Assembly: GCA_902526165.1 (NCBI GenBank)
Contig: CABZKA010000010.1
Coordinates: 1-57,221, forward strand
From: an uncultured Bacteroidota bacterium
GTDB taxonomy: Bacteria > Bacteroidota > Bacteroidia > Flavobacteriales > Flavobacteriaceae
DNA: 57,221 nt
Reading direction: 5' to 3'
Positions 5,438 through 57,221 of this stretch are shown piece after piece. Each line of letters opens with the position of its first letter. The first letter of the stretch is position 1. The position numbers and the translations under genes were made by a program. Below the pieces are notes generated by a model that was not told where the DNA came from, did not search any database, and saw only the letters and a program-made list of their open reading frames with translations.

Positions 5438-5520
5438 TTAAAAAACTAATTAGTAAATTTAATGTACTTAATTTCCATATTTTAATTGGAGTAAATAAGT
5501 AAAATTGGTGAAAACTTGAT

Positions 5521-29816: not shown

Positions 29817-29824
29817 AATTAAGC

Positions 29825-31366
29825 TTGAAAAAAATTTTAATACTATTTCTAATTTTCATTTCATGTAAAAATGAAAATATAAAACCTAGAATTGGTATCG
29901 CTGGAATTTGGATTGAAGCCAGTACTTTTTCACCTATAAACTCAACTGAAAAAAACTTTAACATAAAGTATAGTTCAAATATTTTTTCAAATTATTCTTT
30001 CTTTGATCAGAGCTATATAGAGAAAGCTGATTGGTTTCCAAGTATGACGGCAAGAGCACTTCCTGGTGGTGTTGTGACTAAGTCAGCTTATGAATCTATG
30101 GTATTGCAAATTTTACAGATCACCCAACAAACCCTTCCTCTTGATGGATTAATTCTAGATTTACATGGTGCAATGAATGTTGAAGGTATGGACGACCCTG
30201 AAGGTGATTTTGTGGAGAGAATAAGGAATGTTGTTGGTGAAAAAACAATTATTTCAACTACCATGGATTTACATGGTAATGTTTCCTATGACCTTATAAA
30301 AAATACAGACTTAATAACTTGTTACAGAATGGCACCACATGAGGATGCTATGGAATCTAAAAAAAGATCATTTGATAATTTGATTGAAAGAATTCAAAAT
30401 GGTAAAGGGAAACCGAAATATAAAGCTTGGTCAGATATTCCAATTCTTCTTCCAGGCGAAAAAACTAGTACTCGAGTTGAACCTGGAAAATCATTATATG
30501 GTAAAATTGAAAAGCTGGAAGATAAAAAAGGTGTGATTGATATTGGTATATGGACTGGGTACGCCTGGGGTGATAAGCCTAGAAACCGAGCAGCAGTAGT
30601 TGCTATTGGAGATAACAAAAAAAATGTTATTGGAATTACAGAGGAAATAGCTAATTATTTCTGGTCAGTAAGGAATGATTTTGAGTTTGTTGCTCCTACA
30701 ACAACTCTTGAAAATAGTATAGATAAGGCAATTTTTTATTTAAATAAAAGAAAAAATAAAAAGCCTTTTATAATTAGTGACATGGGAGATAATCCAACAG
30801 CAGGTGGGTCAGGAGATGTGACTTGGACTTTAAATAAAATTTTGAAAAATGAGAAAATAAATAAGGTCAATGGACCTGAAATTATATATGCATCTATACC
30901 AGGTCCAGATCTAATAAAAAATGCTTTGAATACAAAAATTGGAGACGAAGTCACAGGATATATTGGTGCTATTCATGATGATAGATTTTCTCCTCCGATT
31001 TTATTAAAAGGAACCCTAAAATCTGTTGAGCTTGGTGACCCAAATGCGGATGCTGAAGTTGTTATTAAAGTCAATAATATAAATGTGATTGTAACAAATA
31101 GAAGAAAACCATATCATTATATTTCAGATTTTGAAAAACTTGCTTTAAATCCCAAAAATACTGATATACTAATAGTCAAAATTGGATATTTAGTTCCTGA
31201 ACTCTATGACATTCGAGGAGACTGGGTAATGGCATTAACACCTGGAGGTGTTGATCAAGATTTATTAAGGCTAGATTACAAAGAAATTTTGAGGCCAATT
31301 TTCCCTTTGGATGACAACTTTAATGATCCTGACTTAAAAGCTAAGTTGGTACCTAAATCAAATTAA
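29825..31366 (+). CDS. MlrC-like M81 family metallopeptidase, lipoprotein
   Basis: 513-aa protein of the microcystinase C/M81 (DUF1485) family, zinc peptidases first known from degradation of microcystin fragments. Motifs: EASTFSP near the start, LDLHGAMNVEG (Asp112, His114), TTMDLHGNVS (Asp148, His150), then RMAPHED. The C-terminal part contains ISDMGDNPTAGGSGD, the usual MlrC domain 2 opening. A short signal with lipobox (IFISC, Cys14) follows the TTG start. An export signal is not a typical feature of this family and fits its position directly after an exported oligopeptidase. The natural peptide or amide substrate is unknown; microcystin is not implied. Confidence 0.82.
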   Translation: MKKILILFLIFISCKNENIKPRIGIAGIWIEASTFSPINSTEKNFNIKYSSNIFSNYSFFDQSYIEKADWFPSMTARALPGGVVTKSAYESMVLQILQITQQTLPLDGLILDLHGAMNVEGMDDPEGDFVERIRNVVGEKTIISTTMDLHGNVSYDLIKNTDLITCYRMAPHEDAMESKKRSFDNLIERIQNGKGKPKYKAWSDIPILLPGEKTSTRVEPGKSLYGKIEKLEDKKGVIDIGIWTGYAWGDKPRNRAAVVAIGDNKKNVIGITEEIANYFWSVRNDFEFVAPTTTLENSIDKAIFYLNKRKNKKPFIISDMGDNPTAGGSGDVTWTLNKILKNEKINKVNGPEIIYASIPGPDLIKNALNTKIGDEVTGYIGAIHDDRFSPPILLKGTLKSVELGDPNADAEVVIKVNNINVIVTNRRKPYHYISDFEKLALNPKNTDILIVKIGYLVPELYDIRGDWVMALTPGGVDQDLLRLDYKEILRPIFPLDDNFNDPDLKAKLVPKSN

Positions 31367-41892: not shown

Positions 41893-42818
41893 AACATAAC
41901 CTTTATCTATTAACAATATTATTTTTTACATTGTTTTCTTGCGGAGATGAAAACTCCGACTCTAATGATGTGGATCCAGTTGAGGAAGTTCAAATCGAAC
42001 TCGGTAAAACAAACCAAACAATTGAGCACAATGGTATAACCAGAACTTATGTTCAGTATGTACCAAATTCTTATAATCATGAGAATCCAACACCACTTGT
42101 AATTAATTTTCACGGAAATGGTGGTGATGCCCAAGCTTATGCTGATTCTACAGGCGATTTTTATCAGTTTCATAATGTCTCAGAATCAGGAAAGTTTATG
42201 GTTGTTTATCCCCAAGGAGTTATAAGGGTAAAGGGTGCTGCTGAATGGGATCCTGGTGATAACAGCAGCACAAATATTAATGACAATGATTTATTTTTTA
42301 CAGAAAAATTAATCGAAGATATAGACGAAACCTACAATATTGATCTCACAAAAGTTTATGCAGTTGGTTTTTCAAATGGTGGAATGATGGCGTATGGACT
42401 TGCTTGTAAAAGACCAACCAAAATTGCAGCAATTGGAATCATGTCTGGTATAATGCTTCCAGATGATAGTTGTAATTCTAATGAATATACATCTGTAATT
42501 CATTTTCATGGCACTTATGATACAGACGTTCCTTATAATGGTGAATTAGATTTTGACTCTGTTCCGTATGTTGTAAATTTTTGGCTAAACCATAATTCAA
42601 TCCCACAGTCTAGTGAAACAATTACTCAACTTAACGGTGGGGTCGGAACAAAAACCGAATACACTGGTGGAAACGGGAATACCGATTTCACTCTATATAA
42701 AATTGATGAAGAATATGGCAAAGAAGGCGGGCATGTATGGTTTGGAGACGCGATCAATGGTAAAATCCCAGGCCAAATAATGTGGGATTTTTTATCAAAT
42801 TATACTACCAATGACTAA
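41889..42818 (+). CDS. CE1/LpqC-like esterase lipoprotein
   Basis: 309-aa alpha/beta-hydrolase of the LpqC/polyhydroxybutyrate-depolymerase-like/feruloyl esterase group. Lipobox FSC (Cys18). INFHGNGGDA is the oxyanion-loop region. Ser162 lies in AVGFSNGGMM, Asp211 in HFHGTYDTDVP and His282 in GGHVWFG, a complete triad. Substrate class is esters of hydroxycinnamates, hydroxyalkanoates or acetylated sugars. It is coupled by ATGA overlap to the PLP enzyme, an odd pairing. The stop overlaps that of the convergent S9 peptidase by 4 bases. Confidence 0.82.
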   Translation: MKHNLYLLTILFFTLFSCGDENSDSNDVDPVEEVQIELGKTNQTIEHNGITRTYVQYVPNSYNHENPTPLVINFHGNGGDAQAYADSTGDFYQFHNVSESGKFMVVYPQGVIRVKGAAEWDPGDNSSTNINDNDLFFTEKLIEDIDETYNIDLTKVYAVGFSNGGMMAYGLACKRPTKIAAIGIMSGIMLPDDSCNSNEYTSVIHFHGTYDTDVPYNGELDFDSVPYVVNFWLNHNSIPQSSETITQLNGGVGTKTEYTGGNGNTDFTLYKIDEEYGKEGGHVWFGDAINGKIPGQIMWDFLSNYTTND

Positions 42819-45460
42819 TTCTGGGGAATATCTTGATTAATGATATTCATGTCTATGGAAAAATCATTTTTACCTAAGAAATGTTTACTAAAATAATCCG
42901 CCTTAAGCCAGAAAAAATACTCACTCATACTTCCAAATCCGTGTCGTTGACCTGGTAGGATCATGAATGAGAATCTTTTATTCTCCTTAATCAAAGCATC
43001 AACAACTCTCATTGTAGCAGCTGGGTGAACATTATTATCCATATCACCAGTTACCAATAGTAAATGTCCTTTTAAATTTTTAGCAAGCTCTTGATTGTTA
43101 TCAATCTCATACTTATATTCAATATTTCCATCTTTATCTAATTCTTTTTCTATCCCGTGGTGACTTTCGCTCCACCAACTGTTATAAATTGCATTGTCAT
43201 GATTTCCAGCAGAAGAGACAGCAACTTTGAAAAAATCGGGATAAACTAACATGGCAGCAGTTGACATAAAACCTCCGCCAGAGTGACCAAAAATCCCAAC
43301 TTTATTTATATCTATAAAGTCATGCCTTGCTGCAAGTTGTTCAGCCACGTATTTTTTATCAGCCAAGCCATAATCCCGCAAATTTCCATACCCATAATTG
43401 TGGTACCATTTTGATCTATCAGGATGACCGCCCCTATTACCTAGTGTAACAACAATAAATCCGATTTGGGCAAGCCGATCCTTTCTCGTCCACCTATAAT
43501 CAGCTACAAATGATTTGTCAACTTGTTCGGTTTGAGGACCTGGATATACATATTCAATCAATGGATATTTTTTCGTTGGATCAAAATCAAAAGGTTTATA
43601 CATAACACCATAAATATCAGTAATACCATCATTGGCCTTAGCCTTAAATGGTTCAGGAAATTTATAACCCGAGTCAAATAGGGCTGAAAGATCAGCTGTT
43701 TCTAATTTTAAGACTAGATTTCCATTGGCATCAAGGAGTTCTGATTTTGGAGTTGTATTTACTCTTGAAAAATTACTTACAAAATAATTTTTATCCCCAA
43801 AATAAGTATTCGTATTGAAATTACCAGGATTTAAAATTTTTAAGTTAGAGCCATTAATATTTACCCTATATAAATGTTCATAATAAGGATCCATATCTTT
43901 ACTATACCCATGAGCTTTAAAGAAAATGTTTTTGTTTTTTGGGTCAAAAGAAATTACATCTTCAACATGATAAGGCCCTTTTGTTAGTCTGTTTATTAGC
44001 TTACCACTTTTATCATATCTGTACAAATGACCCCAACCATCTCTTTCAGACCAGTATATAATTTCAGACTCATTTTCAATTAATTTTATCTGTTTTCGAT
44101 TATAAATGTCGTGATAAGTGTTGGTTGATTCAGTTATTAATAATGTTGGTTTGAAATTATCTTTATAGGCAACATAAGTATCTAACTTTTTTTTATCTCT
44201 ACTTATAACTTGAAAATATACATCACCTTTTTTGGATAAAATCATGTTGGGTCTAAATTCATCATCAAACTGAGATGGCTTCAGTCTGTGGCTAAAAACA
44301 TAGATATCTTTTTGCTTTGTACTATCCAATTCTATCATATTGATTTTTTTGGATTCAACATCAAAGTGTAAAACACTCGATTTTGGATATTCTTGCTCAC
44401 CAGCCATATGATATTTATAAGTTTCAAGTTTTGGTCTTTTACTAATTGAGTTAAGAACCCACAAATCTTTAATCATTCTATTATCAACTCTTGTATATAC
44501 AAAACTCTTTGAGTCGTGTGACCAGTAAACATTAACTCTTTTTCTTTTAGACATATCTTCATCACCATTATCCCAACGAGAACCAGTTCCATAGTCATAA
44601 TATTTTTCACCATCTTTTGTCCATTGATTTTCAACAACTGTCGAGTCAAGTTCATTCTTTACAGTCTTTAAAAAGTTTACTTTATCCATCCAATAAAGAT
44701 TATAGTTTCTCGAAAAAACTACAATTGAGCTATCAGGCGATATATTAGCCCAACGATTCCATCTTTTATTTTCTTTTCTCTTATTATTTACAACCTTTAA
44801 TTGATTTGAACCTAAAACATATTCAAATAAATAAACTTTATTAGTTTTTTTTGAGACAGTTTTTTTTGCATTCTTTTTTTCATAAAACATATCAATAAGT
44901 TCATTTATTGTTTGATAATCTAGATCTGTTTTAGAACTTATAATAGCAATATCTTCATAGATAATACTGTTTACAGTTGTATATTCATTATCTATTAAAT
45001 TTTCTAATATGTCTTCGTCAATTTCTTCTTTGAATTCACTTAAATCATAGTCATTTTCCTCAGAATTTACCATTTCATTAGAAACTATATAGAATTGAAT
45101 TGCAGTCTCATTCTTGACAAATTTAAAATCAAACTTTGGAAGGTGTTTGCCATCATACGGATCTTTTGTGATTTCTGTTAACCACGCTGCCATTTTATCG
45201 TTGTCAAATAATTCCTTTCTTTCTCTCTTGTCAGCATCCACTAAATAATACTTTGATCCCTCAGTTGTTTTGTATTGATACCAAAAACGATTTCCATTTT
45301 TGAGCCAATTTGGATATACGCTCGTTGAGTGAACCATCTTGGCTACATTATTAGTGGAAAACCTAGTTGCCAAATCATAATTAGGTCTTGGAGTAAGTTC
45401 TTGGCAAGAAAGATTAATTGAAAATAATATAAAAAAACAAAGTGAAAATTTTCTAAACAT
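42815..45460 (-). CDS. DPP-IV-like S9B family serine peptidase
   Basis: 881-aa exported peptidase of the dipeptidyl-peptidase IV type (signal peptide about 1-19). N-terminal beta-propeller, then an alpha/beta-hydrolase domain with Ser727 in GHSGGGFM, Asp808 in TGDMDNNVHP and His840 in GQRHGFG; the spacing between triad residues is close to that of human DPP-IV. It is longer than typical bacterial DPP-IV (about 720 aa). An acidic, helix-like insertion lies near 130-215 (rich in E, D, N and then K). The first codons overlap the stop of the 121-aa membrane protein by 8 bases. Likely removes dipeptides from proline-rich peptides in the periplasm. Confidence 0.88.
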   Translation of the reverse strand: MFRKFSLCFFILFSINLSCQELTPRPNYDLATRFSTNNVAKMVHSTSVYPNWLKNGNRFWYQYKTTEGSKYYLVDADKRERKELFDNDKMAAWLTEITKDPYDGKHLPKFDFKFVKNETAIQFYIVSNEMVNSEENDYDLSEFKEEIDEDILENLIDNEYTTVNSIIYEDIAIISSKTDLDYQTINELIDMFYEKKNAKKTVSKKTNKVYLFEYVLGSNQLKVVNNKRKENKRWNRWANISPDSSIVVFSRNYNLYWMDKVNFLKTVKNELDSTVVENQWTKDGEKYYDYGTGSRWDNGDEDMSKRKRVNVYWSHDSKSFVYTRVDNRMIKDLWVLNSISKRPKLETYKYHMAGEQEYPKSSVLHFDVESKKINMIELDSTKQKDIYVFSHRLKPSQFDDEFRPNMILSKKGDVYFQVISRDKKKLDTYVAYKDNFKPTLLITESTNTYHDIYNRKQIKLIENESEIIYWSERDGWGHLYRYDKSGKLINRLTKGPYHVEDVISFDPKNKNIFFKAHGYSKDMDPYYEHLYRVNINGSNLKILNPGNFNTNTYFGDKNYFVSNFSRVNTTPKSELLDANGNLVLKLETADLSALFDSGYKFPEPFKAKANDGITDIYGVMYKPFDFDPTKKYPLIEYVYPGPQTEQVDKSFVADYRWTRKDRLAQIGFIVVTLGNRGGHPDRSKWYHNYGYGNLRDYGLADKKYVAEQLAARHDFIDINKVGIFGHSGGGFMSTAAMLVYPDFFKVAVSSAGNHDNAIYNSWWSESHHGIEKELDKDGNIEYKYEIDNNQELAKNLKGHLLLVTGDMDNNVHPAATMRVVDALIKENKRFSFMILPGQRHGFGSMSEYFFWLKADYFSKHFLGKNDFSIDMNIINQDIPQN

Positions 45461-45818
45461 ATTGCGATATAATAAGTGATATTATTCCTAAAAATAAAGA
45501 AGTTAAATTAATAATTATAATTCTAATTAACGCCAAACGTGACTTGACATATCTTCTATTATCAGGATAAAGATTTTTTAATAATGAATAGGTAAATTTT
45601 GAGTAATATCTTCCTTCCATATACTCATACTTAGCAATATCTTTTGAATATTTTGTTCCTAAAAAATGCCCATCGCGTTCGATCTCCTTTTTCCTTTCTT
45701 GGATTTCATCATCATATATAATTAATCGAAACTCATCAATTAAAAATTTAATTGGTATGGTAGTCAAAAACCAAATAATAAGAAAAACTTGGGTTAAGTA
45801 TTCAAAATCAATTTCCAT
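45453..45818 (-). CDS. Membrane protein of unknown function (121 aa)
   Basis: Two hydrophobic segments (about 10-27 and 96-118) flank a charged middle part with KEIERDGHFLGTKYSK and YPDNRRYVKSR. This is a two-helix membrane protein with a soluble loop. I do not recognise a family. It starts right after the symporter's stop (0 bases) and its end overlaps the DPP-IV-like peptidase start by 8 bases, so the three are co-transcribed and partly coupled. It may be an accessory subunit of the symporter or a link between uptake and peptidase; nothing in the sequence decides. Confidence 0.65.
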   Translation of the reverse strand: MEIDFEYLTQVFLIIWFLTTIPIKFLIDEFRLIIYDDEIQERKKEIERDGHFLGTKYSKDIAKYEYMEGRYYSKFTYSLLKNLYPDNRRYVKSRLALIRIIIINLTSLFLGIISLIISQYV

Positions 45819-47507
45819 CTACCAAAAAATAGCATACAACATGGCTGTTATCAACATGACACCAAAAGCTGCTAAGTTGAATGTAGAACTGGTAGCAAAA
45901 AGTTTTCTTGATAATACAATTCCTTTTGGATCATCATCATTTCCTTCGAAATAACTTATCAAAGCTATAATCGATAAAGTTCCTATACAGGTCACTAACA
46001 TCTGATTCATAAATGGAATATTTATAAAAATAGATGCATCACTCCACCCATTAGGCGCAACTTTAAAATACATTGCAATTGGAATAGATAAGATAACACC
46101 CCAAATTGCTGCATTATTTGTTGCTTTTTTATAAAATAATCCCATTAAAAATACAGCCAGAATTCCTGGACTAACAACACCAGTGTATTCTTGTATGAAT
46201 TGGAATACTTGACCTAGACTTCCAAGCTGAGGAGCAAGAATCATAGCAATAATCAATGCAACTAGTCCAGTTAACCTACCGACTTTTACCATTTGTTTAT
46301 CATCAGCTTTTTTATTGATTGTGGACTTATAAATGTCCATGGTAAATATTGTCGATGTTGAATTTATCATTGATGCTAATGATGATACAATTGCAGCCGC
46401 TAGTGCAGCTAAAATCAAACCTTTCAAACCTACAGGGATGAAGTTTTTAATTAACCAAGGGGCAGCATTGTCATTTGCAATGTTTCCAGCTGAACCTAAA
46501 AATCCTTCATTACTCAAAAGAGCCATGTTTAACTGACCTGTTTCAGGATCAAGATTCATTACATATGCTATGATACCTGGAAGCACAACAATCAATGGGA
46601 TAATTAGTTTTAAAAAAGCTGCGAAAACAATTCCTTTTTGGCCTTCCTCTAAACTTTTTGCTGCTAATGTTCTTTGTATGATATATTGATTAAAACCCCA
46701 ATAATATAGATTGGCAACCCACATTCCACCAATTAAGACTGCTAAACCTGGTAGATCCCACCATGCATCTCTTCCATTTGGAGTAATTATCTCGCCTTTG
46801 GATAATATCATGGAAAATCTTTCTGGTGCTTTATCATATATATATTTTAAACCATCAAGAAAACTGCCTGAATCTGTAACATTAGACAAAGCAAAATAAG
46901 TCATTAATAAACCACCGAAAATTAGTAAAACAACTTGTATAACATCTGTCCAGGCGACAGCGGCTAGCCCACCCCAAAGTGAATATGCTGCAGCAAAAAG
47001 TGCTAACCCAATGATGCTTATTAATAATATACTACCATCACCGCTTCCAATTATAGTATCTAAAGCTTTACCACCTAAAAATAAAACAGTAGTTAAGTTT
47101 ACAAATACAAACAATGCAATCCAAAAAACAGCCAGTATTGTCTTCAGGTTTGAGCTGTATCTCTTTTCAATAAACTCAGGAATTGTATATAACCCTTTTT
47201 CAATAAAAATGGGGAGAAAAAATTTCCCAACAACCAAAAGTGTTATCGCTGCCATCCATTCGTATGAGGCTATCGCTAAACCTAAGGCAAATCCTGATCC
47301 AGACATCCCAATAAACTGCTCAGCAGAAATATTTGCTGCAATTAAAGAAGCTCCTATTGCCCACCAGGGAAGTGATTTACCTGCTAAAAAATAATCTTCT
47401 GCGCTCTTTGATTTTCCTTCTTTTTGTCTTGAAACATATAATCCTATTGATAATATCAGTATTGCATATAAGGAAAAAACTACTATGTCAATTGTTGAAA
47501 AATCCAT
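45819..47507 (-). CDS. Sodium:solute symporter (SSS/SGLT family)
   Basis: 562-aa inner-membrane Na+/solute symporter with about 13-14 helices. SGLT-type features: NISAEQFIGMSGSGFAL near 59-75, FLAGKSLPWWAIGAS near 40-55, AAAYSLWGGLAAVAWTDV and the ANLYYWGFNQYIIQRTL segment (helix with the sugar-binding Gln-type positions in SGLT proteins). Sugar is the likeliest substrate but other small solutes are possible. No signal peptide. First gene of a three-gene set; the preceding NTF2-like gene ends 5 bases before it and may be in the same transcript. Confidence 0.88.
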   Translation of the reverse strand: MDFSTIDIVVFSLYAILILSIGLYVSRQKEGKSKSAEDYFLAGKSLPWWAIGASLIAANISAEQFIGMSGSGFALGLAIASYEWMAAITLLVVGKFFLPIFIEKGLYTIPEFIEKRYSSNLKTILAVFWIALFVFVNLTTVLFLGGKALDTIIGSGDGSILLISIIGLALFAAAYSLWGGLAAVAWTDVIQVVLLIFGGLLMTYFALSNVTDSGSFLDGLKYIYDKAPERFSMILSKGEIITPNGRDAWWDLPGLAVLIGGMWVANLYYWGFNQYIIQRTLAAKSLEEGQKGIVFAAFLKLIIPLIVVLPGIIAYVMNLDPETGQLNMALLSNEGFLGSAGNIANDNAAPWLIKNFIPVGLKGLILAALAAAIVSSLASMINSTSTIFTMDIYKSTINKKADDKQMVKVGRLTGLVALIIAMILAPQLGSLGQVFQFIQEYTGVVSPGILAVFLMGLFYKKATNNAAIWGVILSIPIAMYFKVAPNGWSDASIFINIPFMNQMLVTCIGTLSIIALISYFEGNDDDPKGIVLSRKLFATSSTFNLAAFGVMLITAMLYAIFW

Positions 47508-48839: not shown

Positions 48840-50306
48840 TTAAATATCAAAAGGGAATTCAAAAGCATTAAAATCCCAAATACCTGGTAGTAAAAAATAT
48901 ACAGCAAGAAAAATGATGATAATTGAAACTATATTCATCCATATACCAACTCTAACCATATCATAAATCTTCAAATAATTTGAGCCAAAAACAACAGCAT
49001 TTGGAGGGGTAGCAACTGGCAACATAAATGCACATGAAGCTGCTAGTGTTGCTCCAACCATTAAAAGAAATGGGTGTACGTCTAAAACCATTGCAGTAGG
49101 AGCAAGAATCGGCAACAGCATTGCAGTAGTTGCTAAGTTCGATGTAATTTCAGTTAAAAAATTAACAGTCGTTACAATAACTATTAGAATAATAATAACA
49201 GAAAAACCATCAAGTTGAGACATGCTTAGTCCAATCCAATTTGCGAGTCCTGTTGTTTGAAAACCCTGAGCAATTGCTAAACCACCACCAAAGAGAAGTA
49301 ATATTCCCCACGGTAATTTAACGGCGTCTTCCCAATGCATGATTTTATTTTCTTTATTTGAATCGCCAGAGCCAATTAAAAATAACGATAGACCGGCAAA
49401 CAATGCTATCATTGTATCATCTAGACTTGGAATAAAAATATTAATAACATCTTTTCTTAAAATCCATGAAACGGCAGTAATAATAAAAATAAATAATACT
49501 ATTTTTTCCTCATATTTGATTGGACCCAATGCGTTCAATTGATTTTTTATTTCAGAATCTGCCTCTTTAAATTCAGTCTGTTTAAATCTAAATGCAACAT
49601 TAGTTATATAGAACCATGCTATAAATAACAGTAAAACTGAAATTGGAAATCCAAAAATAAACCACTCTTTAAAACTTATCTCAATATTATATATTTCCTC
49701 AACTATCCCTGAAAAAACTAGATTTGGTGGTGTACCAATTATTGTTGCTAAACCACCAATGGAAGCACTAAATGCAATTGATAACATTAGAGCTTTCCCA
49801 AAAATTAGATTTTCATCCTCTTCAGTTGATTTTAAATCTTTCATTTGCTTGATAATAGCAATCCCAATTGGCAACATCATTACAGCGGTTGCAGTATTTG
49901 AAATCCACATTGATAAAAATGCTGTTGCGATCATAAAACCTAAAATCAATCTTTTAATTTCAGTACCAATCAAACTAATTATGGTTAGTGCAATACGCTT
50001 GTGAAGATTCCATTTTTCGATTGCAATTGCCAAGATAAAACCACCTATGTAAAGGAAAATATATCTATGTCCGTATGACGATGATGTTTCAGAAATATCT
50101 AATGCACCAGACATAGGAAATAAAATAATTGGCAACAAGGATGTAGCTGCAATTGGCATTGCTTCAGTAATCCACCAAACTGCGATCCACAGGGTGGAAG
50201 CTAAAACAGCGTTACCCTCATCTGATAATCCCTCTAATTCAACAAAAAGTCTTGTAACTATAAAAAGAATCGGGCCTAAAAAAAATCCTATTTTTTTTGC
50301 GTTCAA
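48840..50306 (-). CDS. SLC13/DASS-family Na+/dicarboxylate symporter
   Basis: 488-aa inner-membrane sodium-coupled carrier of divalent organic acids (succinate, malate, citrate) or sulfate. SLC13 hallmarks: the two SNT motifs MWISNTATAVMM (about 133) and EITSNLATTAMLL (about 387), plus the re-entrant regions around them and the C-terminal PVATPPNAVVFGS. About 11 helices. It follows the alpha/beta hydrolase gene with no gap, at the end of the SusCD operon. Position suggests it imports the acid released by that operon's esterases; which acid is unknown. Confidence 0.86.
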   Translation of the reverse strand: MNAKKIGFFLGPILFIVTRLFVELEGLSDEGNAVLASTLWIAVWWITEAMPIAATSLLPIILFPMSGALDISETSSSYGHRYIFLYIGGFILAIAIEKWNLHKRIALTIISLIGTEIKRLILGFMIATAFLSMWISNTATAVMMLPIGIAIIKQMKDLKSTEEDENLIFGKALMLSIAFSASIGGLATIIGTPPNLVFSGIVEEIYNIEISFKEWFIFGFPISVLLLFIAWFYITNVAFRFKQTEFKEADSEIKNQLNALGPIKYEEKIVLFIFIITAVSWILRKDVINIFIPSLDDTMIALFAGLSLFLIGSGDSNKENKIMHWEDAVKLPWGILLLFGGGLAIAQGFQTTGLANWIGLSMSQLDGFSVIIILIVIVTTVNFLTEITSNLATTAMLLPILAPTAMVLDVHPFLLMVGATLAASCAFMLPVATPPNAVVFGSNYLKIYDMVRVGIWMNIVSIIIIFLAVYFLLPGIWDFNAFEFPFDI

Positions 50307-51659
50307 TTAATTATTAAATAATGTGGTTAGTAAGTTTTTAAATTCAGATGATTTATAAATTTTTTCACCATCATGAGTCACATTAGGAACAACCACCTTT
50401 TTATGATTGTGACCCGAATGCTTTAGCCCCATATATTTAAAAATATTTTCTCCTCGCTGGTATCTGCTAGATCCCAATAAGTTTGATGCGCATTGTGTGG
50501 TAACTAATGAACTATCTGTACCGGTTCCATTTCCTAGTAAATAGGTAATACTTCTATTTATAAATCTATTATCAAATGTTTCTTTGGATAAGGAACTCAC
50601 ATATGTTGGAATACTAGTATAACCAAAAGGCCAAATACTTAAACTTGGGCAATTTCCAGGTGAGTATAAATTGCCAGTTTGTTCGTTAATTCTTTCAGAG
50701 GATGTATAATAGAAAAATTGACTTTCGCTGACTATGTACTCAAAATTAATGCTGTCATATGCTGACTCAGATTTATTTCCTGCGGAATAAGTGTGTACGT
50801 ATCTACCCCCGGATGATTGTCCGGTAATTATAATTTCATTCAAAACTGGGAAATATTTTTTATTTGCTAACCGTGATATTAGAATATCTAAAACTTCAAA
50901 TGAACTAATACTAGCAGGTCCACTTGAATTTTGACCATCTCTATATGTCGGTGAAGTCCAAAATAAATCATTAGAGTTATCTTGACTTCTTTTAAAATGA
51001 GGCGATATCAGAACTGTTTTACTTGATACATTTAGAGATTCTAATGATGAGGTAAGGTGATTAAAATAATTATCAGCGTCATAAGACCCTCCGTGAATAA
51101 CAACTAAAGCTTTTTCTAAGTTTTGCCACTCTGCATTTTCTTCAAAGATTGGATAGTTAGAATAAAAATCAAAACTGCCCGTTCCTGATGAATGTGAAAT
51201 ATCAGTTGTTCTTTTACAGTCAGCAGTGTTTGTACATGGTGGTAAAGAATAAATTTTATCATCTACCATTGTAGAAAAGCTTGTATTTATAGATGATGTC
51301 AATACTTCTCCATTACTTCCGATAGCCCCACTCAAGGTTATTGTGTAAGAGCCGTCGAAATCTAAATCGAATTCAACTTCAACAATAGCTGAATTGTTCA
51401 AATAATCATATCTAACTATTGTATAAGTGGACGTTGAATTAATTTTTAAAGCATTTTGAAATGAACTTGCTGAGACTGATTTATTAAATGAAAATCTAAT
51501 TGAGGGATTTGTACTAACACTCTCTAAACCATCTGTTAAGTTTGCTCCATCAATTTTTAAAGATATTAAGTTGATTTCCTCTACTGTTGAATCATCATCA
51601 GAAGATCCCCCAGAACAACCTAATAATAATAAAATGGCAATTCCAAGTAACTGTCGCAT
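50307..51659 (-). CDS. Ig-like/alpha-beta hydrolase lipoprotein (450 aa)
   Basis: Lipoprotein (LLGCS, Cys15) with an N-terminal bacterial Ig-like domain (SbsA/Big_5 type, about 30-130, IRFSFNKSVSASSFQNAL). An alpha/beta-hydrolase follows (about 180-450). VVIHGGSYDADN is the oxyanion region, and the nucleophile is Ser282 in IITGQSSGGRYVH. The C-terminal His lies in PNVTHDGEKIY; the acid was not identified with certainty. Probably a surface or periplasmic esterase. Ends without a gap on the DASS gene and 21 bases after the duplicated-domain lipoprotein. No close known family by eye. Confidence 0.75.
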   Translation of the reverse strand: MRQLLGIAILLLLGCSGGSSDDDSTVEEINLISLKIDGANLTDGLESVSTNPSIRFSFNKSVSASSFQNALKINSTSTYTIVRYDYLNNSAIVEVEFDLDFDGSYTITLSGAIGSNGEVLTSSINTSFSTMVDDKIYSLPPCTNTADCKRTTDISHSSGTGSFDFYSNYPIFEENAEWQNLEKALVVIHGGSYDADNYFNHLTSSLESLNVSSKTVLISPHFKRSQDNSNDLFWTSPTYRDGQNSSGPASISSFEVLDILISRLANKKYFPVLNEIIITGQSSGGRYVHTYSAGNKSESAYDSINFEYIVSESQFFYYTSSERINEQTGNLYSPGNCPSLSIWPFGYTSIPTYVSSLSKETFDNRFINRSITYLLGNGTGTDSSLVTTQCASNLLGSSRYQRGENIFKYMGLKHSGHNHKKVVVPNVTHDGEKIYKSSEFKNLLTTLFNN

Positions 51660-51680
51660 TAACTAAAATTACAACTTTAA

Positions 51681-53477
51681 TTAATTACAAAACGGATATG
51701 GACAAGATGATGCACTATTACTAGTAGCTCCACTTGTACAGCCTAACTCTCCTGTTGACCATTTTCCATTATCTCCTTTGAATCCCCAAGCACCTGTGTA
51801 TTCCCATCCTTGGCCTGTTCCATCTACATTTGCATCTCCATATGTTTCAATTACACTTCCGTCTTTGAATACCTCAATGGCATCATCACCATTTTGAGAA
51901 CAATAACTGTCGACATACACATAAGTGAATTTGCTGTAACAGCTAGCTCCATAATACTCAGCCATTGCATCAGGGTATCGAGCAATTAGAATTTGCTCCC
52001 CTTCTTTAACAGAAATTGCAGGAAAAGTAAATTCTTGTCCATCAGTTCCTCCACCATTGTTAGCAACACCCATACCATAAATACTAAGATCCGGAATGTC
52101 TCTGTTAATTCTCAAATGATGAGATTTTCCTCTATTACCACTTGTCGTAGCAGAAACATCAAAAAGCATTGCTGTAACACCTTTTAGCTCCAAAGGATTA
52201 CAAAATGGGTATTTCGCGTTATTGGTAGCAACTTGAGCATTATCAACAGCACCATCACCAGCATAAATCCACTCATCTCCCAATTTGTAAGCCCAAGTAT
52301 CTTTATACGACCAATATAAATCATAGTTGCTAGAACCACCTGAAAATGATACTTCTCCAAAAGTTTCTATCACAATACCATCATTAAATAACTCAACTGC
52401 ATCATTACCGTTTCCAGTTATTTTATTAGTTAAAATTACTGTGAAGTCATCATAGCATGATCCAAAATATGATTTAGCTTGTGCTTCATCAGCATCTCTA
52501 AGTACTAATATTTCATCACCTGCATTTGCTGAATTAGCTGGAAAAGTAAATTCTTGTCCATCAGTGCCACCTCCATTGTTAGCTATTCCTAACCCATAAA
52601 TACTAAGGTCAGGAATATCAATTAAAACCCTAAGCTGAATTGCTCTTACACTTCCTCCGTCTGCATTAAAGTCATCTAATTCCATCACACCTTTAAGCTC
52701 TATTGATGGTGGAACATCATTAATATTTATATTTAATTTTTGGTCAACTGACTCGACACAATTAACTAAATTTTCAAGTTCAACAACAAAAGTCTCTGCA
52801 CCTTCAGTATCTCCGTCAGGCAATACATTAACAGTTGCACTCGCAGATAAACTTCCTGCAGGAATAGTAAGACTGGTTTGGTCAATTGAGTAATCAGTAT
52901 CTTTTAATGAATTTCCTGAAAGAGCTAAATCAAAACTAACATCCTTTAATATGCTTTCAGTAATTGTGGCCGTTATTTTAAACTCATCTCCCTCATAATA
53001 TTCAGAAGACTCAGCAGAAATACTAATTACCGGTGGAACAAAAGCCTTGGTTGATACAATTAGCTGATAATCGCTAGTCATCGACTCACTACTTGCTCCA
53101 TACACTCCTGCGGGTATGCTAACAATATAATCTGTCTCATATTGTAATGGTTCAGAAAAACTAATCGTAACATAAGAGTTTGTTGAATCATAACTTAAAC
53201 TATATACAGCAGCTGGTGCAATTGATATTGCAGATTCGAAAGCACTCACATTAAGAGTATGTGAAAATATCAACTGAAATTGACCAACAGGATCAAAATT
53301 AGCAATAGAGCCTGTAACAGCACTACCATTATATTGAACTTGTAAAACACGTAAATCATTTGTTATTGGAAGTCCATCATAGACAGTATCATCTTCACAT
53401 GATGAAACAGAAAATAGTAGAACAAATGCTGCAAGTGTTAAAAATATTATACTGTGGATATTATTTTTCATATTCAT
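51681..53477 (-). CDS. Surface lipoprotein with Calx-beta and duplicated lamin-tail-like domains
   Basis: 598-aa lipoprotein (SVSSCEDD, Cys27). Big_5/Ig-like domain (about 40-145), Calx-beta-like domain (about 150-255, DTEGAETFVVELENL), then two ~170-residue copies of a beta-rich domain (about 258-428 and 429-598). Each copy begins ELKGV, contains DIPDLSIYG-x-G-x-ANN and GGGTDGQEFTFPA, and ends PFCN. The copies look like lamin-tail domains, a guess by pattern. A likely surface binding protein in place of SusE/F; no catalytic residues visible. Second-to-last-but-one in the SusCD operon, 2 bases after the SGNH gene. Confidence 0.72.
   Translation of the reverse strand: MNMKNNIHSIIFLTLAAFVLLFSVSSCEDDTVYDGLPITNDLRVLQVQYNGSAVTGSIANFDPVGQFQLIFSHTLNVSAFESAISIAPAAVYSLSYDSTNSYVTISFSEPLQYETDYIVSIPAGVYGASSESMTSDYQLIVSTKAFVPPVISISAESSEYYEGDEFKITATITESILKDVSFDLALSGNSLKDTDYSIDQTSLTIPAGSLSASATVNVLPDGDTEGAETFVVELENLVNCVESVDQKLNININDVPPSIELKGVMELDDFNADGGSVRAIQLRVLIDIPDLSIYGLGIANNGGGTDGQEFTFPANSANAGDEILVLRDADEAQAKSYFGSCYDDFTVILTNKITGNGNDAVELFNDGIVIETFGEVSFSGGSSNYDLYWSYKDTWAYKLGDEWIYAGDGAVDNAQVATNNAKYPFCNPLELKGVTAMLFDVSATTSGNRGKSHHLRINRDIPDLSIYGMGVANNGGGTDGQEFTFPAISVKEGEQILIARYPDAMAEYYGASCYSKFTYVYVDSYCSQNGDDAIEVFKDGSVIETYGDANVDGTGQGWEYTGAWGFKGDNGKWSTGELGCTSGATSNSASSCPYPFCN
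51684..52707 (-). repeat. Tandem duplication of a lamin-tail-like domain
   Basis: Two copies (about 52195-52707 and 51684-52194) share ELKGV at the start, a nearly identical DIPDLSIYG to QEFTFPA core and a terminal YPFCN. Exact matching ends suggest an in-frame tandem duplication of one whole domain unit, followed by divergence of the middle and late parts. Confidence 0.8.
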
Positions 53478-53479
53478 AT

Positions 53480-54235
53480 TTATTTGATATTAGTTTTAAA
53501 ATCATAATTATCTACTAGCTGTTGTAAAGAACTAGAATTATCGTGATTTAATAATAGAAGATATACTTTTTGACCATTTTTATCTGTACTGGTAATTCTT
53601 CTTGGTATTTTTTTGTAAGTTTTTTCTTTGGTTAAAAATTTAAATAGCAATAATGCATTTAAATATGTTCCATGTTTCGAAGGATGTTTAATGTCATCAT
53701 AAAGATTTATATCACTACTCCATTTTTTAACTTCGTTCCATGCAGGGCCCATGGGAATATATTTTACATTTAGCTCTTCACACATTTTTATATAAGAATT
53801 GGTGATTTCTTGTTGTTTGTATTTTGAACCTCTGTAAGACCATGTAATCATAAAAACAGGCTCAGAATTACTGTTCTTGATTATTTGCGTGATTTTTTTA
53901 CTATCTGAAATAAATTTTGATTCATCTAATGTCGCCAAACTGTGATGATTTAATATGACAAAATCGAATGATTCATTTTCTATTAAATTAATTGTTTCCG
54001 ATTTTGATTTATCTAGGTGATCTGAAATAGTTGAACCACCAATCAATGAATGTTTTGTGTTAATATAATAGTTATCACTGTATTGGGACATCTCATTTAG
54101 AACTAAAGGTAAATTATAGAAATAGGTAAAACTATTTCCCACAAATAACACACTTATAGAGTCTTTAGAAAAGGTGTGGTTTCCAAAGAATAAAAATGGA
54201 ATTAAAAGTATTAATGTTCTTAAAAAAACTTTCAT
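53480..54235 (-). CDS. SGNH/GDSL-like hydrolase of the SusCD operon
   Basis: 251-aa exported SGNH hydrolase (signal peptide about 1-23). Block I: FVGNSFTYFYNLP (Ser35). Block II Gly66 in IGGSTI. Block III Asn96 in ILNHHSL. Block V Asp181 and His184 in DDIKHPSKHG. The order and residues are complete, so it should be active, probably on an ester. It lies 7 bases after susD and 2 bases before the duplicated-domain lipoprotein. Candidate substrates are acetyl or other acyl groups on the operon's polymer. Confidence 0.82.
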   Translation of the reverse strand: MKVFLRTLILLIPFLFFGNHTFSKDSISVLFVGNSFTYFYNLPLVLNEMSQYSDNYYINTKHSLIGGSTISDHLDKSKSETINLIENESFDFVILNHHSLATLDESKFISDSKKITQIIKNSNSEPVFMITWSYRGSKYKQQEITNSYIKMCEELNVKYIPMGPAWNEVKKWSSDINLYDDIKHPSKHGTYLNALLLFKFLTKEKTYKKIPRRITSTDKNGQKVYLLLLNHDNSSSLQQLVDNYDFKTNIK

Positions 54236-54242
54236 CTATATT

Positions 54243-55670
54243 TTACTCATTTACTTTAGTTTTAACAAAAATACCAGGATCCTCAGGGGCATTGGAATTT
54301 GAATTCAATTCATCAGCAGAATAAGGTAATCTTTCTGGAAATGGTGGATTAGGTCCGCCAACCATTACAAATGGAACTGAAATATTTTGATCATCTTTTC
54401 TTAATCGTCTAGCATCATTAAAAGGCATATATGATGTAAATCCTGAAACGTATCTTTCTTCAATAACTTCTCTCAAAAAAGCAACCTTAGGCGTTACAGA
54501 ATCAGGGTTTTCTATTCCTCCAGGATTAAAATCAGACTCTGAAAAACTTATGTAAGATAAAGCTGATGTTGGATAATTACTATTTAAATGACCTCCATTA
54601 CTCATCCATGATCTTACGTCGTTTAAATGTGTGAGACCATCAGACACCGATCCATTTCGAGCTGCACATTCAGCCATGATCAGTTTATTTTCAAAAAAAG
54701 AAATCATATTTTGTCGTTCAAATTGACCAACTATTCCATTGTTTCCACTCCAATTTTCAAGAATTTGGAAATATCCGTGGCGAGATGTTTCATTTGTCTT
54801 TGCGTGGTTTCTACTTAAAGTATTTGAGGGGTCTAAAAGACTCATCAGATAACTTGTCTCTCCATTGGAGCCAATATTTCCTAAATCACCAGCTCTAGAG
54901 CCTTCAAGCATCACCCAAGTCAGATTTTTATCACCTTCGGTTGACTCTGTAGCCCCTCTAGGTATAAATTCCAAATCACCTGATGCAGACGAAATTCCAT
55001 TTTGAGCAGAGGATAGTGCAGAAGAATAATCCTTTAATTGAAGGTATATTCTAGCCTTTAGTGTGTAAGCTGCTTCAATCCATTTATTTTTATCTCCCTC
55101 AAAATAAATATCTTGAGGAATGTTTTGAGATGATGAACTTTGAAGAGTCACTATTGCATCGTCAAGAAGTAATAACACATCATTGAAAACATCAATTTGA
55201 GAATCAAAAACTGGATCAGTAATATCTAAATTTCCTATTTCTTTATACGGTATATCTCCAAAAATTGTAGCTCCAGTACTAATTGCGTGGGCCTCGACAA
55301 CTTGAGCGATACCAACAAGTAACGCATTATCTGAACTATTAATGATATGTCTCATATTAGTTATTACGCCAACATAAATTGCTCTCCAAGTCCCATCAGA
55401 ATCTCCAGTTGAAATATTAAAACCATATTGATTTGCAAAAATTGATGCAAATCCGATCAATTGACCACTATACATTGAGGATACATTACTCAATCTACCA
55501 AGCTGGACTTGTGTGTTTGCTAACTGACCTCCGGTCAAAAATAAAGTTGCCTCGATATCACTGATTACAATATCATTTGGATTATCATTTATACCTTCAT
55601 TTAATTCTTCACATGAGAAGAAAATTAAGAATGTAAAAATTAAAGTTATGTTTAAATATATTTTATTCAT
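54243..55670 (-). CDS. SusD/RagB-family outer-membrane lipoprotein
   Basis: 475-aa SusD-like (SusD-like_2 type) surface lipoprotein capping the SusC channel. Lipobox FFSC (Cys20) followed by acidic EELNEG and GINDNPND. TPR-like helical core: ANTQVQLGRLSNV, IVEAHAISTGATIFGDIPY, KNKWIEAAYTLKARIYLQLKDY. The C-terminal SusD hallmark is EVIEERYVSGFTSYMPFNDARRL. Starts 10 bases after the SusC stop. Together they import an oligomer; the ligand cannot be read from sequence. Confidence 0.9.
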   Translation of the reverse strand: MNKIYLNITLIFTFLIFFSCEELNEGINDNPNDIVISDIEATLFLTGGQLANTQVQLGRLSNVSSMYSGQLIGFASIFANQYGFNISTGDSDGTWRAIYVGVITNMRHIINSSDNALLVGIAQVVEAHAISTGATIFGDIPYKEIGNLDITDPVFDSQIDVFNDVLLLLDDAIVTLQSSSSQNIPQDIYFEGDKNKWIEAAYTLKARIYLQLKDYSSALSSAQNGISSASGDLEFIPRGATESTEGDKNLTWVMLEGSRAGDLGNIGSNGETSYLMSLLDPSNTLSRNHAKTNETSRHGYFQILENWSGNNGIVGQFERQNMISFFENKLIMAECAARNGSVSDGLTHLNDVRSWMSNGGHLNSNYPTSALSYISFSESDFNPGGIENPDSVTPKVAFLREVIEERYVSGFTSYMPFNDARRLRKDDQNISVPFVMVGGPNPPFPERLPYSADELNSNSNAPEDPGIFVKTKVNE

Positions 55671-55680
55671 TTTCTAAAGA

Positions 55681-57221
55681 TTAAAAGTTAAACTTAACAG
55701 ACGTTAAAATTGATTTAGTTTGTGGATTAGTAAAGTATTCGACTCCCATTGCATTTCCAACACCATTCTGATTAATTTCGGGATCAATACCTGGAACTCG
55801 ATTGAAATTCAACAGGTTTCTACCAGTGACAGTAACTTCAATATTGTCCACGAAACTACTGGCACCTAGTGTAGAGGAATCTATTAAATAACTAAGTGAT
55901 AGTTCCCTTACTTTAGTAAATGTAGCATCATAAATATTAAAATTATAAGCTTGGTTATCTCCTAGACCGCCTCCAATTCCTGTTCTGTACCATGTTTCAT
56001 CCAACAAAACAGGACCAGCTCCAAAGTTTTTAATATTTCCTCTTACCGTTGATCCCATCGGAACAACAGATCCAGAGTAATTTACCAAATTTTGATCTAA
56101 TGTTACCATATTAGCTGTTTCCATGGTCATACCCCACCTATTTAAGACATGAAGTGTTCTTGGATTAAATTCTCCTCCACTTGAATGTTCAATAACAGTT
56201 GAGAGTCTAAGTTTTTTATAAGAAAAATTTAAAGTGATTCCTCCTCTCCAATCAGGATTCGGGTCTCCTAAAACAACTAATCCATTAGTTAGAATCGGGA
56301 AACCATTATTATTAAGTATAAAGTCTCCATTATCATCTACTTGTGAACCTCTACCATAAATTACACCTAGAGGATGTCCAACAACTGCAGCAGAATATAC
56401 ATTACCCCCACCAAGATAGATTGATTCTGTTCCGGCTAGGTTTGTTACTATGTTATCGTTTGTTGACCAGTTCAATGAAGCGTCTAAACTCAAATCTTGT
56501 TTATTAATTAAATCAAAACTCATATCAACTTCGAAACCTTTATTTTCCATTGATCCAAAGTTTCCATATTTGGTTGAATAACCTGATGATGGTGCTAAAT
56601 CAACATTTAACAGAATACCATCAATGTCATTTTGGTAATAAGTAAGTGAGAGAGAAAGTTTATTTTCTAAGAATCTTAAATCAGCTCCAATTTCCCATTC
56701 TGTTTTTATCTCGGGCTCTAAATCCGGATTACCAAGATTATTATCAACCCTGTAGCCACCTCCAAAAAGATCAATATCAAGAGGGTTGTTTAAAGTTGAA
56801 TATGAAAAACTTCCTTCAGCTAATGTCTGAAATCTGTGAGCAGATGGCTGAACACCTACTTTACCCCAGGAAGCTCTAAGTTTTCCAAAAGAAAAAGCTG
56901 ATTCACTATTTGATTTTTGGAAATTCCATGCAACATCTGTGGATGGATAGAAGAACGACCCATTGATTGTTGAAGAATTTTCTAAAGCACCTGAAACATT
57001 TAAAAATACACTGTCATAAAAATCAAAATTTAAAACGGCATATCCTCTATTGTATCTTCTGTTCAGTTTAGCAATTTGTAATATTGAAGCCTCAGCTGCT
57101 GTGTTTAATGAAGTTGTTTGTTTTGTAGAGTTTACTAGAAAGCCTGTTATTCTTCCAGTATTTCTTTGATATTTTCTATCACTGTAACTCCAACCAGCAG
57201 TAGCTGTTAAGTTGATATCGG
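55681..57221 (-). CDS. SusC/RagA TonB-linked receptor, 5' end cut by window edge
   Basis: Partial gene: only the C-terminal about 513 residues of the barrel are in the window and the frame stays open to 57221. Reading back past the first in-frame ATG (56550) gives further SusC sequence: GNPDLEPEIKTEWEIGADLR and TYYQNDIDG. That ATG is therefore not the start. The ATG-proximal part contains NFGSMENKGFEVDMSF. The C-terminus shows PGIDPEINQNG, then a final strand ending in VKFNF. Plug domain, signal peptide and true start lie beyond the window. It is the first known gene of the operon with SusD, the SGNH hydrolase, two lipoproteins and the DASS symporter. Confidence 0.9.
   Translation of the reverse strand, partial: DINLTATAGWSYSDRKYQRNTGRITGFLVNSTKQTTSLNTAAEASILQIAKLNRRYNRGYAVLNFDFYDSVFLNVSGALENSSTINGSFFYPSTDVAWNFQKSNSESAFSFGKLRASWGKVGVQPSAHRFQTLAEGSFSYSTLNNPLDIDLFGGGYRVDNNLGNPDLEPEIKTEWEIGADLRFLENKLSLSLTYYQNDIDGILLNVDLAPSSGYSTKYGNFGSMENKGFEVDMSFDLINKQDLSLDASLNWSTNDNIVTNLAGTESIYLGGGNVYSAAVVGHPLGVIYGRGSQVDDNGDFILNNNGFPILTNGLVVLGDPNPDWRGGITLNFSYKKLRLSTVIEHSSGGEFNPRTLHVLNRWGMTMETANMVTLDQNLVNYSGSVVPMGSTVRGNIKNFGAGPVLLDETWYRTGIGGGLGDNQAYNFNIYDATFTKVRELSLSYLIDSSTLGASSFVDNIEVTVTGRNLLNFNRVPGIDPEINQNGVGNAMGVEYFTNPQTKSILTSVKFNF

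Follow-up and report, generated by a model that had tools for sequence, protein, structure and literature searches.

An uptake system for sugar polymers is the almost automatic interpretation of SusCD in Bacteroidota, yet many SusCD pairs of marine Bacteroidota have no neighbouring carbohydrate enzymes. As far as the available parts of the respective reports go, SusD homologues are reported to bind non-glycan synthetic polymers including poly(ethylene terephthalate) (PMC11267923), and Comamonas acidovorans 7789 has an outer-membrane-located hydrolase that cuts polymalate (PMC9210645). In the literature searched (titles and beginnings of abstracts, with few subscription journals) we found no sequence of a bacterial polymalate hydrolase, no link between SusCD and the hydrolase PahZ1, and no description of a SusCD locus that combines a dicarboxylate carrier with hydrolases of the kind reported below. 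An earlier sequence-only reading of this DNA had called the locus possibly undescribed. Here we analyse such a locus at one end of a 57,221-base stretch (henceforth the window), which is the entire contig C10 (CABZKA010000010.1) of a 1.2 Mb, 73%-complete genome of an uncultured flavobacterium. Its six genes encode SusC, SusD, an SGNH hydrolase, a lipoprotein with Ig and Lamin Tail Domain (LTD)-like domains, a lipoprotein with an Ig domain and an alpha/beta hydrolase domain (henceforth HYD) and a DASS carrier. On balance, we favour the view that the locus is dedicated to a polymer built from C4 dicarboxylic acids, with a polymalate-type polyester as the likeliest candidate.

A conserved six-gene SusCD operon

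In the window the operon comprises six minus-strand genes separated by 10, 7, 2, 21 and 0 bases, with the open reading frames (ORFs) lying where the sequence-only reading had placed them; Pfam and NCBIfam profiles identify a partial SusC, a SusD-like_2 protein, two Big_5 proteins (both above cut-off) and DASS. The first gene (55681-57219) encodes the C-terminal 512 residues of a SusC/RagA TonB-linked outer-membrane transporter, aligned to TIGR04056 over model positions 490-981. It has an open 5' end and scores 210.1 bits, short of the cut-off of 368.25 since the N-terminal half is missing; the full-length SusC of NAT231 scores 606.4 bits against the same cut-off. Since the contig ends at 57221, SusC is truncated and its upstream flank lies outside the contig. 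Directly adjoining this SusC-type TonB transporter is a SusD-type lipoprotein (SusD-like_2; 54243-55670; PF12771, 76.6 bits, cut-off 27), which makes the two a SusCD pair. There follow the SGNH/GDSL-type, DUF4886-like hydrolase (53480-54235), the duplicated-domain Ig/LTD-like lipoprotein (51681-53477), HYD (50307-51659), whose Big_5 Ig domain precedes a hydrolase domain with a PahZ1-related fold, and the DASS (SLC13) sodium-coupled anion symporter (48840-50306). Lipoboxes, including those of the last two lipoproteins, and signal peptides were assigned by eye. Pfam and NCBIfam identified no glycoside hydrolase or polysaccharide lyase among the operon proteins, the upstream flank being outside the contig, and Rfam gave no match in the window at its gathering threshold.

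Comparing gene order across genomes, a check that the sequence-only reading had proposed, revealed that the six families occur together in 11 Bacteroidota genomes, in varying order. When each genus of the family was represented by a single genome, HYD was found in 5 of 149, and four of these five, the window's included, have the same operon. While a scan of genome contigs with the single HYD sequence gave no matches, a scan of named genomes with a four-sequence HYD alignment gave six loci. Those in NAT231, Allomuricauda profundi, Flavivirga sp. 57AJ16 and Robertkochia marina were new, and those in Bacter4 and YR2-618 had already been found. Full loci in G589, G1120 and G1154 come from another order of the same class. 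Matches were obtained in 18 of 395 genomes sampled from the order and in 85 of 395 sampled from the phylum, nearly all of them covering the Ig domain only; full-length HYD was confined to the window's genome and, in the phylum sample, G589. The locus is thus rare among the sampled order and phylum genomes. Matches to the HYD catalytic domain of G589 were present in 8 of 248 genomes from its order (3 with the locus). In the order of G781, 1 of 123 genomes gave a match, namely G781 itself, to which we return below.

The order SusC-SusD-SGNH-LTD-HYD-DASS is found in the window, NAT231 and Bacter4, the order SusC-SusD-SGNH-DASS-LTD-HYD in G143, A. profundi, YR2-618, Flavivirga and Robertkochia, and orders other than these two in G589, G1120 and G1154. 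We then carried out an all-against-all comparison (E 1e-6, with length limits) of 191 ORFs of at least 100 amino acids from 13 loci, i.e., the 11 full ones plus G191 and G781, some of them short or ending at contig ends. Nothing was common to at least two of the 13 loci except the six families and one putative regulator; HYD and the LTD-like lipoprotein fell into one cluster because they have the Ig domain in common. The SGNH gene was present in all 12 loci that have SusC, SusD, DASS and an Ig/LTD lipoprotein. Given that gene content is kept despite unrelated flanks and shuffled order, the six genes look like a functional unit. Chance adjacency is ruled out by the recurrence of the set in 11 genomes.

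Replaced and added parts in related loci

Gene content, its conservation, family membership and the exchange of hydrolase and carrier can all be read from the sequences, and the related loci make the likely function more specific. Four loci have replaced or added parts (REPLACEMENTS: G185, G191, G781 and NAT231). G185 combines the regulator gene, SusC, SusD, SGNH, DASS and the LTD-like lipoprotein with a PahZ1-like enzyme in the HYD slot. In G191, HYD and an LTD-like protein whose PF00932 score stays below cut-off are accompanied by SusC, SusD, a PahZ1-like enzyme (E 1.6e-46 to the PahZ1 structure 6ve6) and DASS. The PahZ1-like enzymes of both loci are clear homologues of PahZ1. In G781, which belongs to another class, SusC, SusD and HYD are followed by DctA (NF002461, 583.7 bits, cut-off 513), a C4-dicarboxylate carrier of a family other than DASS. 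Finally, NAT231 has a tartrate dehydrogenase gene 22 bases after DASS, assigned by TIGR02089 at 485.6 bits (equivalog cut-off 470.4). Two carriers of different families thus stand beside the same hydrolase type, which points to a C4-dicarboxylate product, and the substrate is probably a C4-dicarboxylate polymer or oligomer. The sequence-only reading had proposed uptake of an ester-linked polymer, its cleavage by the two hydrolases and import of the released organic acid. The uptake, cleavage and import parts of this proposal are strengthened by DctA, by the PahZ1-like replacement and by the added tartrate dehydrogenase. The ester bond is a more tentative part: HYD most resembles an enzyme acting on beta-amide bonds, and in the window it lacks the canonical catalytic acid. 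Neither of the findings that the sequence-only reading had named as refutations, glycoside hydrolases or polysaccharide lyases just upstream or homologous operons linked to a sugar polymer, came up in the loci examined, the upstream flank of the window itself lying outside the contig. A dehydrogenase of the TtuC type was also considered as a general part of the locus and rejected, as it is in-locus only in NAT231; YR2-618 has a 45% identical relative in an unrelated cluster, and other matches are 30-36% identical.

In the scheme that we infer, from the localisations and the order of steps to the bond type, the monomer and the activities, the Ig/LTD-like lipoprotein and SusD would bind a polyanion at the cell surface, where HYD, a lipoprotein hydrolase with the PahZ1 fold, would cut the polymer to oligomers. 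SusC would import these via TonB, the SGNH hydrolase, if periplasmic, would finish them to monomers, and DASS would carry the dicarboxylate together with sodium into the cytoplasm, to be used in the tricarboxylic acid cycle or, in NAT231, by tartrate dehydrogenase.

Carrier, hydrolases and binding lipoprotein

The window DASS scores 320.7 bits against TIGR00785 (cut-off 198.6) and contains two SN motifs, SNTAT and SNLAT, which places it in the family. The best solved matches of its profile are NaDC1, NaCT and NaDC3, followed by the sulfate carrier NaS1. Both SNTAT and VATPPN are the same as in NaDC1 and NaCT; the corresponding motifs are SNTAS and VSTPPN in NaDC3, and SNTST, GTSTN and VANPPN in NaS1, while the window's version, GTPPN, differs from all four carriers (for the DASS proteins of G191 and G333, the search patterns missed some motifs). 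Judged by these carboxylate-type motifs, the carrier leans towards carboxylates, and sulfate transport was provisionally rejected on the same grounds.

The window HYD had no match to an enzyme family in a Pfam scan, and a search of PDB sequences with its profile returned, up to E 1, only two chains, both PahZ1 (E 0.007 and 0.012). With its AlphaFold model (mean pLDDT 79.9, pTM 0.69), the top Foldseek match was PahZ1 6ve6 (E 2.1e-11, TM-score 0.70 by target length, 14% identity), followed by LpqC (E 4.0e-11). The catalytic Ser (GQSSGG in the window) and His are kept in 11 of 11 full-locus members, and the canonical catalytic Asp, three residues after a strand-end glycine, is found in 7 of these; in its place, the window, Bacter4 and G1154 have a later (S/T)D in a GNG..(S/T)D loop.

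The window SGNH protein likewise has no Pfam match of its own; four scanned relatives from other loci match DUF4886 (PF16227), and the SGNH profile matches the solved protein 4s1p (E 1.2e-14). In a seven-sequence alignment S35 (block I GNS) as well as D181 and H184 (the Asp-x-x-His near the C-terminus) are invariant, i.e., the catalytic Ser and the Asp-x-x-His of an SGNH hydrolase are both present. The enzyme is perhaps periplasmic, as it appears by eye to have a signal peptide without a lipobox.

The lipoprotein between the two hydrolases consists of a Big_5 Ig domain (PF13205, above cut-off), a Calx-beta-like domain and two copies of an LTD-like domain. These repeats have no Pfam LTD (PF00932) match in the window and, against PDB sequences, no relative beyond one chance-level match. 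We call them LTD-like because the same slot of G589 (L097) encodes two true Lamin Tail Domains (PF00932, 110.7 bits, cut-off 34.3) after the same Ig and Calx-beta domains. Both repeat types have relatives beside the isoaspartyl dipeptidase gene IadA and the carrier gene DcuC in G333 and G572. In structural searches with the lipoprotein model (pLDDT 73.5), S-layer and macroglobulin chains led by E-value with low TM-scores, and the best fits were to single Calx-beta domains (TM 0.62-0.72 by target length). A role as an acidic-polymer-binding surface protein is possible.

Candidate substrates

Within the C4-dicarboxylate polymers, we favour polymalate because the SGNH hydrolase is conserved, because NAT231 adds the dehydrogenase and G781 has DctA, and because searches for IadA gave no match in 13 of the 14 genomes with the locus; the identification as polymalate or a close polyester is a tentative one. 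Several observations weigh against it. As described in the available part of the report, PahZ1 cleaves beta-amide bonds (PMC4456602), and the polymalate hydrolase of Comamonas is described, again in the part available, as lacking serine-esterase activity (PMC9210645). The fold evidence is not exclusive, with 574 PDB chains matching the HYD model at E <= 0.001 and many other esterases among the Foldseek matches listed. The canonical Asp is missing in 4 of 11 full-locus HYDs (window, NAT231, Bacter4 and G1154), so that the Ser-Asp-His triad of PahZ1 is incomplete in the window protein. The SGNH gene is missing from the G191 locus, and the tartrate dehydrogenase is in the locus of only 1 of the 11 genomes and belongs to a family (TIGR02089) known to use tartrate and D-malate and not known to use L-malate. 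In G781 the SusCD-hydrolase-DctA set lies inside a uronate (glucuronate)-catabolism cluster (L098:537-15738), in which glucuronate isomerase and tagaturonate reductase score above cut-off and KDG kinase-like, dehydratase-like and MFS genes below. The neighbourhoods of relatives outside the locus add to these points. Relatives of HYD occur on plasmids (18 records, of which five regions were read), and in the four of them that are annotated, all from Burkholderiales, neither SusCD nor DASS or DctA appears. In one of the four an MFS carrier lies immediately upstream; the fifth region has no annotation. Lastly, PahZ1-like genes adjoin IadA and DcuC in G333 and G572 or a peptide transporter in Microvirga, neighbours that point to aspartyl polymers or peptides.

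The last of these points leads to the main rival, a polyamide of aspartate (beta-poly(Asp), a peptide rich in Asp or a remnant of cyanophycin), from which HYD would cut amide bonds while DASS would import aspartate or short acidic oligomers. This alternative is rather unlikely. It draws on the PahZ1-like fold of HYD, on the PahZ1-like gene in the HYD slot of G185, on G333, where a PahZ1-like gene and a 62% identical DASS gene are paired beside LTD-type genes, DcuC and IadA, on G572, which has LTD-type genes, DcuC, IadA and PahZ1-like genes, and on G143, which carries both the locus and IadA. G143 is, however, the one genome of 14 with IadA, several of the other 13 being incomplete metagenome-assembled genomes (MAGs); moreover, no peptidase is common to the 13 loci, the SGNH hydrolase is conserved, and the NAT231 operon gains a tartrate dehydrogenase rather than an aspartate enzyme. 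More widely, PahZ1-like genes were found in 15 of 296 Bacteroidota genomes, and we examined 13 stretches from 12 of these. The G712 stretch has a weak DctA relative some 4 kb away; in the stretches beyond G185, G333, G572 and G712, no dicarboxylate carrier was seen by eye, judging from N-termini only and, for G554, from part of the stretch. On plasmids (12 records, three regions read), the neighbours of PahZ1-like genes are a catalase gene, nearby pectin-type genes and, in Microvirga, a peptide ABC transporter.

We also observed a second type of cluster (L152:7219-18001, L148/L149), which contains a PahZ1-like hydrolase, LTD-type proteins, DcuC and isoaspartyl dipeptidase together with an M14-like peptidase recognised by eye. 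It possibly serves beta-aspartyl polymers.

SusCD systems usually serve glycans, and SGNH and alpha/beta esterases often deacylate them. A further candidate is therefore an acylated glycan or phenolic ester (succinylated, malylated or tartaric) that would be stripped of its dicarboxylates for import, the glycan being left or used by other loci. The position of the G781 locus among uronate-catabolism genes fits this explanation, as do two GH43 genes of Flavivirga, which were the only such matches among ten nearby proteins scanned with Pfam (one above cut-off; other flanks were read by eye) and which form a separate cluster on the other strand about 4.5 kb downstream. By contrast, the 13 loci have neither a glycoside hydrolase nor a lyase nor a sugar carrier in common, and a SusCD pair is hard to explain if the acyl group alone is used, which makes this candidate improbable. 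A sugar-polymer locus proper was rejected, since the operons themselves contain no glycoside hydrolase or polysaccharide lyase, as the sequence-only reading had noted for glycoside hydrolases in the window, and the SusCD cargo is probably not a glycan.

Equally, TonB-dependent transporters commonly import chelates, and the Foldseek list of HYD includes the siderophore hydrolases EstA and EstB. The substrate might accordingly be a low-molecular-weight metal-carboxylate chelate or siderophore-like ester from which the hydrolases would free the ligand. We regard this as very improbable, given that SusD and a multi-domain binding lipoprotein suit a polymer better and that the loci, apart from the six families and the putative regulator, have no gene in common and hence neither an iron reductase nor a metal carrier.

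A putative regulator and a 10-bp repeat array

In 8 of the 13 compared loci, and in G185 as well, the operon is flanked by a divergent gene for a protein of about 385 residues (a family example is L028:2084-3238). Two members scanned had no Pfam family, and the only NCBIfam match was to an anti-sigma model far below cut-off (E 0.0095); read by eye, the protein begins with a helix-turn-helix-like region, followed by a membrane helix and a domain at the C-terminus. Searches for it gave no match in the window's assembly or in those of NAT231 and Bacter4. Among 204 genomes of the family it is present in four, three of which carry the locus (G019, G143 and G185); the fourth, G003, has a relative of 28% identity (E 1.5e-30) and had no HYD match in the scan of 149 genomes.

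Between this gene and the operon, TAAA words recur at 10-base spacing (by eye TTGATAAAAA), with runs of at least three in 8 of 9 loci (regions L036, L027/L028, L038, L039, L097, L121, L122, L145 and L029). No TAAA run precedes SusC in NAT231 or Bacter4, the Bacter4 stretch extending 175 bases to the contig end. The observed period-10 run was reached in 0 of 1000 dinucleotide shuffles for six loci and in 10, 17 and 99 for G185, Flavivirga and G589, and with any period from 8 to 15 allowed in 0-3 for the six loci and in 80, 105 and 511 for the other three, respectively, counts that are optimistic because word and period were picked after inspecting the sequences. A period of 11 bases was rejected, as 10 bases fits. 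The array is a possible operator, on which the putative regulator, with its gene upstream of the operon in relatives, may act.

Other features of the window

Elsewhere in the window, two successive very large ORFs (164-12987; 1757 and 2488 residues) each combine an IgGFc-binding domain with a CHU_C tail for type IX secretion. At 27708-31366 only 8 bases separate a prolyl oligopeptidase gene from the next gene, a homologue of M81/MlrC-type metallopeptidases. On the minus strand at 42815-47507, a gene for a DPP IV-type peptidase, a small ORF and a gene for an SSF sodium symporter follow closely on one another.

Comparison with known systems

There is some prospect, still short of an even one, that this is the first SusCD system for a natural, polymalate-like C4-dicarboxylate polyester, with new Ig-domain surface depolymerases, LTD-type polyanion-binding lipoproteins and new putative regulators on 10-bp arrays, extending from flavobacterial MAGs with small genomes to another Bacteroidota order. 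If so, C4-dicarboxylate polyesters would be a recurrent, unnoticed carbon source, and the uptake range of SusCD would widen beyond sugar polymers. The combination of SusCD, a dicarboxylate carrier and PahZ1-type hydrolases would then give one class of SusCD pairs without carbohydrate enzymes a testable substrate type, and the locus would supply candidate genes for the degradation of polymalate or polyaspartate. The named hosts Allomuricauda profundi, Robertkochia marina and Flavivirga sp. 57AJ16 make it testable.

Compared with the polysaccharide utilisation loci of Bacteroidota, the locus has the same SusC-SusD pair, lipoproteins, hydrolases, inner-membrane carrier and adjacent putative regulator; it differs in that the operon has no glycoside hydrolase or lyase, the carrier belongs to a dicarboxylate family and the putative regulator has no Pfam match. 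The SusD homologues that bind synthetic polymers are presented as cellulose- and chitin-binding, in an abstract that contains no operon with a dicarboxylate carrier (PMC11267923). As for the Comamonas polymalate hydrolase, the likeness lies in its location and in the polymer that it cuts, and the difference in its reported lack of serine-esterase activity, a comparison made by description (of which part was available) and not by sequence (PMC9210645). With PahZ1 of Sphingomonas KT-1 and Pedobacter KP-2, HYD has in common the alpha/beta hydrolase fold, an RxxRG-like stretch that follows the acid loop in the majority of aligned members, and a slot that a PahZ1-like enzyme fills in G185, whereas it differs by its N-terminal Ig domain, weak sequence similarity and, in four members, the missing Asp. 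Finally, the carrier is homologous over nearly its full length to the DASS/SLC13 proteins NaDC1, NaCT, NaDC3 and VcINDY, with two motifs identical to those of NaDC1 and NaCT, and is set apart from them by being encoded within a SusCD operon.

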